Below are positions 1 to 34,360 of a stretch of DNA of 64,000 nucleotides, piece after piece. How positions within the stretch are numbered: position 1 is the first letter of the stretch; each line of letters starts with the position of its first letter. A program made the translations under genes and the position numbers. Source of the stretch: Arcicella rosea (GTDB lineage Bacteria > Bacteroidota > Bacteroidia > Cytophagales > Spirosomataceae); contig NZ_JACHKT010000025.1 in the NCBI RefSeq assembly GCF_014204325.1, positions 1 through 64,000 of the forward strand, given 5' to 3'. Below the pieces are notes generated by a model. The model worked only from the letters and a program-made list of their open reading frames with translations, ran no database searches and had not been told where the DNA came from.

Positions 1-95
1 AGTAGGAATTCATTGCTCATCAATCACAAAAAAGCGGTCAAAAACTAATTTTGACCGCTTTTTTGTGATTTTAAAATTCGGGATGACTCATGTTT
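1..95 (-). mobile_element. Truncated copy of a MITE-like repeat element (terminal 95 bp)
   Basis: This stretch is the reverse complement of 33417-33511, the left 95 bp of the complete element at 33.4 kb. It contains a hairpin at 22-70 with a perfect 22-bp stem and a 5-nt loop (ACTAA). The terminal inverted repeat lies at 73-95 and contains TTCGGGATGACTCATG. The element continues beyond the left edge of the window. The loop reads ACTAA on the plus strand in both copies although the flanks are inverted, so the loop is flipped relative to its flanks. No coding capacity is visible. Confidence 0.75.
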
Positions 96-32878: not shown

Positions 32879-33379
32879 ATGAAAATCGTCTTAATAACAT
32901 TAATTACTTGCTTGGCTGTATTGACAAATTGTACTGCACAAGATGAAAAAGCTGGAGTTACTCATCATAAATTTACCGTCGTGAAAACAGATGCTGAATG
33001 GATGAAAATATTAACACCCGAACAATTTAAAGTAACCAGAAGAAAAAGTACTGAATTAGCTTGTTCTGGTGCATATTGGAAGAATCACGAAAAAGGTATT
33101 TATAAATGTGTATGCTGTAAATTGCCTCTTTTTGATTCTCAAACAAAGTTTGAATCTGGTACAGGCTGGCCATCATTTTACAAGGCTATTCACAAAGATG
33201 CTATTTTGGAAGTAGCCGACAATAGTTTTGGTATGGAAAGAGTAGAAATCCTCTGTAGTCGTTGTGGAGCCCATTTAGGTCACGTTTTTGAAGATGGCCC
33301 TAAACCAACAGGTTTGCGTTATTGCTTAAACTCATTATCGCTGGATTTTGAGAAAGATGAGAAAATGAGTAAGAAATAA
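32879..33379 (+). CDS. msrB: Peptide-methionine (R)-S-oxide reductase MsrB, lipoprotein form
   Basis: A 166-residue protein that reduces methionine-R-sulfoxide in oxidised proteins. The N-terminus looks like a lipoprotein signal (LTNC, Cys18), so it probably acts in the periplasm. The zinc-binding pairs are Cys77/Cys80 and Cys126/Cys129, the substrate motif is GTGWPSF, and the catalytic Cys149 is in LRYCLNSLSL. An AAGGA sequence directly precedes the ATG. The MITE-like element begins 37 bp after the stop. Confidence 0.93.
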   Translation: MKIVLITLITCLAVLTNCTAQDEKAGVTHHKFTVVKTDAEWMKILTPEQFKVTRRKSTELACSGAYWKNHEKGIYKCVCCKLPLFDSQTKFESGTGWPSFYKAIHKDAILEVADNSFGMERVEILCSRCGAHLGHVFEDGPKPTGLRYCLNSLSLDFEKDEKMSKK

Positions 33380-33416: not shown

Positions 33417-33669
33417 AAACATGAGTCATCCCGAATTTTAAAATCACAAAAAAGCGGTCAAAAACTAATTTTGACCGCTTTTTTGTGATTGATGAGCAAT
33501 GAATTCCTACTGTTTGAGCGAAGCGAGTTTAGGAATTCTTGAATTTCTTTTGTTACTTTTCTTGTTTCAAGACAAGAAAAGTAAGGATTGTACAATAATA
33601 AAGATAAAAACCTCTCAAATCGTCCTAAACCTCACTATTCTAAGAAAAAATTCGGGATGACTCATGTTT
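33417..33669 (+). mobile_element. MITE-like element, complete, 253 bp
   Basis: Perfect 23-bp terminal inverted repeats (33417-33439 and 33647-33669; core CATGAGTCATCCCGAA) bound a non-coding element. Inside are a hairpin with 22-bp stem and ACTAA loop (33442-33490), a GAATTCCTA / TAGGAATTC hairpin (33501-33539 region) and a 13-bp palindrome with arms TTACTTTTCTTGT / ACAAGAAAAGTAA (near 33553-33584). No transposase is encoded. A second copy, cut by the window edge, is at 1-95. A possible target duplication of TATGAAA-like sequence flanks it, but the right copy has extra bases, so I am not sure. Confidence 0.75.
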
Positions 33670-33871: not shown

Positions 33872-34360
33872 TTAGTTTTCTCTGGCACTTCTTTTTAAAA
33901 CATATTTAAAAGCGGTGCCTGTTAATATATAACCAGAAGTAGTTGCTGTTGAAAATACTTTGTAATTTACTTTCATCAATCCACTTGCACCTAAATCTTG
34001 TGCTTGTGCTACCATTCTAGCTAAAATTGCTTCTTTTTCCTGTTGGTCATTTCCACGTTTCAGCATTGTGCCTTTATATTCTTGCTTGGCTGTTAATGGA
34101 AATTCTTCTGAAATGGTTAATTTATCCATTTCTTCAAAGCTTTCTTTAGGCTGTTCATCTCCCTGCAATACATCAATTGCATATTTATCAGGAACTTTAA
34201 AACCTAAACCTGTATGTTGATCATAACCACCACTTTGGTAGTTTGGGCTATAGTAAGAAGTAGGTTGAAAGGTTTTGGTTGGCTGACAATTTGTTAAAAA
34301 AAATGACAAACAAACAAAACCTACCGCTGTCTTAGTCCACTTAGATACTTTCCGAATCAT
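33872..34360 (-). CDS. Lipoprotein of unknown function, 162 aa
   Basis: The N-terminus ends in a lipobox (FLTNC), so the mature protein is lipid-anchored. Residues ~28-55 are rich in Tyr, Ser, Gly and Gln. The C-terminal half, with ILARMVAQAQDLGASGLMKVNYKV and GYILTGTAFKYV, resembles the short alpha-beta domains of YbjQ/heavy-metal-binding-like proteins, but the similarity is weak. Its start overlaps the end of the Dabb-domain gene by 20 bp, which suggests translational coupling. Confidence 0.65.
   Translation of the reverse strand: MIRKVSKWTKTAVGFVCLSFFLTNCQPTKTFQPTSYYSPNYQSGGYDQHTGLGFKVPDKYAIDVLQGDEQPKESFEEMDKLTISEEFPLTAKQEYKGTMLKRGNDQQEKEAILARMVAQAQDLGASGLMKVNYKVFSTATTSGYILTGTAFKYVLKRSAREN

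Follow-up and report, generated by a model that had tools for sequence, protein, structure and literature searches.

Why should two copies of one small element, lying in opposite orientations in the same stretch of an Arcicella genome, differ only in the direction in which the loop of a hairpin reads? The stretch (the window, 64,000 nt, C25:1-64000) comes from a draft assembly of 5.31 Mb in 77 contigs. When positions 1-95 were reverse-complemented and compared with 33417-33511, the only five mismatches were the loop bases, ACTAA against TTAGT, which are exact reverse complements of each other. The initial annotation had described the loop as inverted relative to its flanks, and this comparison bears it out. 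We think it very likely that the loop is flipped by replication template switching between the arms of the hairpin, which is shaped like a terminator and sits in what appears to be an IS4-like MITE.

Table 1. Features of the two element copies and of their surroundings in the window.
Feature	Coordinates	Strand	Remarks
Complete MITE copy, 253 bp, ORF-free	33417..33669	+	In a 492-bp gap between a convergent gene pair
Left terminal inverted repeat (TIR) AAACATGAGTCATCCCGAATTTT	33417..33439	+	21-nt core shared with the ends of 1.43-1.46-kb IS copies from other genomes
Right terminal inverted repeat	33647..33669	-	
Perfect 22-bp hairpin with bidirectional terminator shape, AAAAAAGCGGTC..GACCGCTTTTTT	33442..33490	+	22-bp stem, 5-nt loop, exact
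5-nt loop ACTAA	33464..33468	+	Unflipped orientation, the majority in Arcicella
Second hairpin, weak, arms GAATTCCTA/TAGGAATTC	33501..33538	+	No flips seen
Third hairpin, 13-bp stem and 6-nt loop	33553..33584	+	Exact; flipped in one other genomic copy, L066
Second copy, inverted orientation	1..95	-	Ends at contig start (assembly break)
Loop of the left copy	44..48	-	ACTAA on + strand, TTAGT in element orientation: flipped
msrB (peptide-methionine (R)-S-oxide reductase)	32879..33379	+	Stop 37 bp upstream of element
Convergent ORF	33872..34360	-	End 202 bp beyond element

The complete copy is MITE-like, as first described: a check of the sequence confirmed its extent (33417-33669), the lack of an ORF and the perfect TIRs, which are 23 bp each and show 100% complementarity between 33417-33439 and 33647-33669. 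Three internal hairpins had been reported. The 22-bp/5-nt and 13-bp/6-nt hairpins are exact, but the one at 33501-33538 is weak. Folded as DNA it reached -3.3 kcal/mol (z -1.25), barely better than shuffled sequences, against -24.5 kcal/mol (z -12.4) for the long hairpin.

The left copy is cut, as had been noted, but the cut is the start of the contig and not a biological event, as at least nine contig ends in the assembly terminate about 90-100 nt inside the same element. Its loop orientation should be reliable, because unique flanking sequence is reached within about 50 nt. An assembly or sequencing artefact at palindromes might be suspected, since one copy abuts the end of a contig and many contigs are broken inside the element, but flipped loops were also present in copies internal to contigs (L004, L014, L020, L022, L063, L067), and the loop is no more than about 50 nt from unique flank. 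Flectobacillus, a different genus, shows the same mixture of orientations on a 5.4-Mb contig, which answers the objection of misassembly, and so do orthologous sites in two separately assembled species. With the internal copies and two other genomes against it, an artefact is extremely unlikely and was rejected. It had also been suggested that the two window copies could invert the 33 kb between them. That idea depends on the contig-edge copy, one among dozens genome-wide, and we found no indication that such an inversion has occurred.

Short, non-coding and multicopy, with 23-bp TIRs on 253 bp and at least 40 full-length copies in the Arcicella genome (and 76 exact matches to the TIR core), the element has the general properties of a MITE. 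Allowing one mismatch at most, 48 of the 223 genomes of the family contained the 21-nt TIR core, against none for the backward control, and the core was also present in many further Bacteroidota records; a search of viral contigs for the TIR gave no match. In other genomes the same core, identical at 21 of 21 nt, bounds insertion sequences of 1431-1465 bp (1.43-1.46 kb), found in Flectobacillus, Spirosoma, Lewinella and Aureispira. Those translated, one each from the first three genera, encode a single DDE transposase of 446-455 aa, which matches PF01609 (DDE_Tnp_1) above the gathering score and carries the Y-2-R-3-E-6-K pattern of the IS4 YREK signature (YMHRWNIEQAFRFAK in the L106 ORF). The curated NCBIfam IS4 cut-offs were missed, the best match scoring 50-58 bits against 152-160, with the nearest models still IS4.

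As its TIRs are common to insertion sequences with a DDE transposase, the MITE is probably mobilised in trans. The sequence is best explained as a non-autonomous MITE belonging to a family of IS4-like insertion sequences of the Spirosomataceae, which the IS transposase would mobilise. Two queries found no transposase in the element's own Arcicella genome, where a 77-contig draft may miss a repeated IS. No target-site duplication was seen: flank identity was about 0.3 at every offset and length, with no direct repeats.

Several other features of the family were observed. In IS copies L106, L153 and L103 the transposase frame ends ...NSG-stop within the TIR, so the TIR also encodes the C-terminus. 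The same 21-nt TIR is present in Chloroflexota records (L121, L143, L154, L178, L179, L201, L204), far outside Bacteroidota, either because it has spread across phyla or because the contigs were mis-binned. GC-rich inserts of about 15-16 bp, GCGGCCGCCGCTGCGG and GGCGGTTCGCCGCTGCGAT, occupy fixed internal positions in the AT-rich element (L005, L013, L014, L015, L020, L066; L018, L021). In other Arcicella genomes (L032-L035, L043-L047) the internal module with hairpins two and three (window 33501-33586) is also present but is not bounded by these TIRs, and given this the MITE looks like a composite. In some relatives (L117, L145, L175) the element is enclosed by an almost perfect inverted repeat (12-22 bp), as though it had inserted mid-palindrome. 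Insertion into pre-existing palindromes was considered and set aside: the Arcicella flanks carried no such signal, and the few cases were all in other genomes.

The copies are not spread evenly among gene arrangements. Among the 30 Arcicella copies examined, 25 are flanked by convergent genes and 5 by tandem genes, with none intragenic or flanked by divergent genes, while convergent pairs make up 7 of the 44 neighbouring gene pairs in the window. Most copies are a few tens of bp away from stop codons. Convergent placement in 25 of 30, often tens of bp off both stops, hints at target choice or strong selection.

A GC stem with a T-tract downstream of genes is the sequence shape of an intrinsic terminator, and from this shape and the convergent placement the long hairpin AAAAAAGCGGTC..GACCGCTTTTTT would fit a putative bidirectional terminator. 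A consensus terminator scan did not list it, probably since the T-tract sits in the stem. We also considered an uptake sequence, as GCGGTC is similar to Pasteurellaceae uptake cores; AAAGCGGTC was not enriched in the window (9 matches against 9.0 expected) and the idea was dropped.

Scoring the loop across copies, the check originally proposed, revealed both orientations in both genera. In Arcicella, with the remainder of the element used to orient each copy, the loop was flipped in 9 of the 41 complete copies that were scored. A tree made without the hairpin columns required at least seven changes of orientation, so the flips recur. Stems were perfect in all nine flipped copies, and none of the 17 copies with imperfect stems was flipped. 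The Fisher p of about 0.005 for this association is too strong, because the copies are related, and as the imperfect-stem copies come mostly from one recent burst the association is phylogenetically confounded.

The other hairpins of the element provide a comparison within the same copies. Flips were seen in 9 of 41 long hairpins, 1 of 43 13-bp hairpins (L066 against L061, L062 and L065) and 0 of 42 weak ones; flipping declines as hairpin strength falls, inside the same element. In copy L065 a flip is accompanied by a paired change in the stem. The inverted segment also lies in different A/T registers in L016/L019 and, in Flectobacillus, L303/L329.

The second genus gave a more even picture. 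Flectobacillus genome G008 has 46 AAGGCGGTC..GACCGCCTT hairpins, nearly all on the single 5.4-Mb contig, and of those that could be oriented by their flanks with a clear margin 20 were forward and 21 flipped, often with flanks that are alike. The outer stem bases vary among these copies yet remain paired (CATACAA/TTGTATG, ACCCAAA/TTTGGGT, CAAAG/CTTTG). The outer stems thus covary while the flanks diverge, and the hairpin is more conserved than the element body. GCGGTC hairpins number about 100 per genome in G160 (Flectobacillus longus LYT7W), G161 (deposited as Cellulophaga sp. BC115SP) and G162 (very probably Flectobacillus sp. BAB-3569), and in many of these hairpins the loop, GGAAAATATTTTCC, is itself a perfect palindrome. 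Separately, G161, although submitted under the name Cellulophaga, falls with Flectobacillus, sharing the genus code of F. longus and flanks that are mostly 80-98% identical (L108, L112, L140), and appears to be misnamed.

Copies at different sites show that both orientations exist; orthologous sites show what happens at one site. We used the flanks of 30 hairpins of G160 to locate the same sites in G161, these being two close Flectobacillus species. Twenty pairs had a readable hairpin, of which 6 were flipped, 8 had the same orientation and 6 were ambiguous. Three pairs (L297/L326, L290/L342, L289/L325) are clean flips in place. At the flipped sites the neighbouring DNA is conserved and the outer-stem bases are continuous, and in L297/L326 the flip is the sole change in the hairpin. 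The calls for L307/L332 and L308/L270 depend on an edit-distance difference of only 2, in hairpins that carry further changes.

These pairs bear on another possibility, that the hairpin is an independent short module which entered the site, or was exchanged there, in either direction instead of being inverted in place. The hairpin is indeed found outside complete elements (L087, L095, L096) and is better conserved than the body around it. Replacement seems very unlikely all the same, because outer stem and flanks run on unbroken through flipped pairs, with no further hairpin change in L297/L326, and the unique loop of L290/L342 stays at the same site.

That unique loop also bears on the source of the flips. 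It occurs once in each of the two genomes, in opposite orientations, and nothing else in four Flectobacillus genomes matched it within one mismatch. As the loop is unique in both genomes, no other copy donated the flip, although this is a single such case. Dispersed copies might otherwise have paired in inverted orientation through the stem and swapped loops by short gene conversion or recombination. Each genome holds dozens of near-identical hairpins with at least 26 bp in common, and short exchange may apply to common loops such as ACTAA and ACAAT, which have many potential donors. However, the L290/L342 loop flipped although neither genome contains another copy of it within one mismatch, and the flips end within the stem of about 20 bp, leaving outer stem and flanks unaltered. 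Conversion is thus an unlikely general explanation. The initial annotation had raised recombination between the two window copies; a flipped loop elsewhere in the family with no possible donor makes such conversion unneeded, and it is excluded for the unique-loop case.

Template switching, in contrast to exchange between copies, needs no donor. It should reverse-complement the loop in place while keeping stem and flanks, as seen in L297/L326 and L290/L342, and it should homogenise the arms or produce compensatory stem changes. In L302/L338 the flip was accompanied by matching changes in the two arms of the stem, from GCGGTC/GACCGC to GCGTTC/GAACGC. The flip in L307/L332 likewise came with a paired change, and L065 and the covarying outer stems show the same kind of change. 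That a donor is unnecessary is seen in one case, L290/L342.

The orthologous pairs also give an approximate rate. With a flank divergence of about 10.5%, the rough mean from G160/G161 flank identities, 4-6 flips in 14 scored pairs correspond to about 4-9 flips per hairpin per substitution per site, from a small sample. Read from these alignments, this is the estimated rate of a mutational hotspot. Enzymatic phase switches are generally far faster.

A site-specific recombinase or a cruciform-resolving enzyme inverting the loop as phase variation, the former having been proposed at the outset, would account for the coexistence of both orientations among copies, at about 1:1 in Flectobacillus. 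Such a switch does not fit with 8 of the 14 scored pairs keeping their orientation at about 10% flank divergence, a slow and mutational rate, nor with the varied A/T registers of the inverted segments, and on these two observations we set it aside. A second hairpin of unrelated sequence has also flipped once (L066), the 5-nt loop carries neither promoter nor coding content, and the analysis linked no recombinase to the element. We regard an enzyme-driven switch as highly improbable.

We favour template switching because it predicts what was seen: loops flipped in place, stems left intact or repaired, flips that depend on how good the stem is, A/T registers that vary and no donor. A polymerase reaching the perfect inverted repeat would jump to the other strand within one arm, copy across the loop and return to the original strand in the opposite arm. 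The loop would be left reverse-complemented and the stem either unaltered or repaired to perfect pairing. A symmetric terminator should still work with a flipped loop, so flips look neutral, and neutral flips would recur and approach about 1:1 in old families.

This touches on the question of whether paired changes in RNA stems arise by one-step template switching or by two selected mutations. As each Flectobacillus genome offers about 100 hairpins and each Arcicella genome dozens, with loops that are apparently unconstrained and an orientation that can be read, the flip rate, its dependence on stem length and its coupling to stem changes become measurable in nature. A broader reading, which we put forward tentatively and think somewhat less probable than its opposite, is that one type of replication error keeps rewriting terminator hairpins in these bacteria, with single template-switch events both flipping the loop and producing the paired stem changes. 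Stem covariation would then be partly mutational rather than the product of RNA selection, and loop orientation would act as a neutral clock with two states, readable at hundreds of scattered sites.

The element resembles several known systems. Like other prokaryotic MITEs, for example MITEAba12 (PMC6382973; reviewed in PMC10969869), it is short, gene-free and present in many copies with TIRs common to an IS, but it differs in having no detected target-site duplication, a strong bias to convergent gaps and a flip-prone hairpin. Its putative transposase source resembles IS4-family insertion sequences in DDE_Tnp_1, the Y-2-R-3-E-6-K pattern and best NCBIfam matches, but falls below every NCBIfam IS4 cut-off, shows no detected duplication and has its transposase stop inside the TIR. 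REP/BIME and REPIN sequences (PMC2817692, PMC3116915) are likewise dispersed intergenic palindromes in many copies, whereas the element here has full TIRs and a DDE-type IS partner, not Y1/RAYT.

The closest likenesses are to hairpins whose loops invert. In the minute inversions of plastid trnH-psbA (PMC2903610) a loop flanked by inverted repeats of 18 bp or more flips recurrently, with the two forms near equal at 19:16, but these are single loci with longer loops (25-27 bp) and no repeat family; hairpin-associated plastid inversions go back to Kelchner and Wendel 1996, as cited there. PMC8604942 describes template switching as homogenising the arms of inverted repeats and inverting spacers. 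In a study of how template-switch mutations generate and maintain RNA hairpins, loop inversions have been reported for bacterial rRNA hairpins (PMC8794818, Moenttinen and Loeytynoja 2022), which like those described here combine a loop inverted in an intact stem, compensatory stem changes and an inferred interstrand switch. Its authors describe what they have on stem maintenance as circumstantial evidence, and the study names a compensatory change combined with loop inversion as what would be the strongest support (PMC8794818). Loop inversions are rare in rRNA (69 inversion-only, 6 with a compensatory change), which was attributed to loop conservation (PMC8794818), whereas they are common in the present case, where the hairpins are terminator-like and dispersed with a mobile element. 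The class of mechanism is already known; what is unusual, and gives the finding its value, is how many natural replicates there are, some of them flips coupled with paired changes in the stem.
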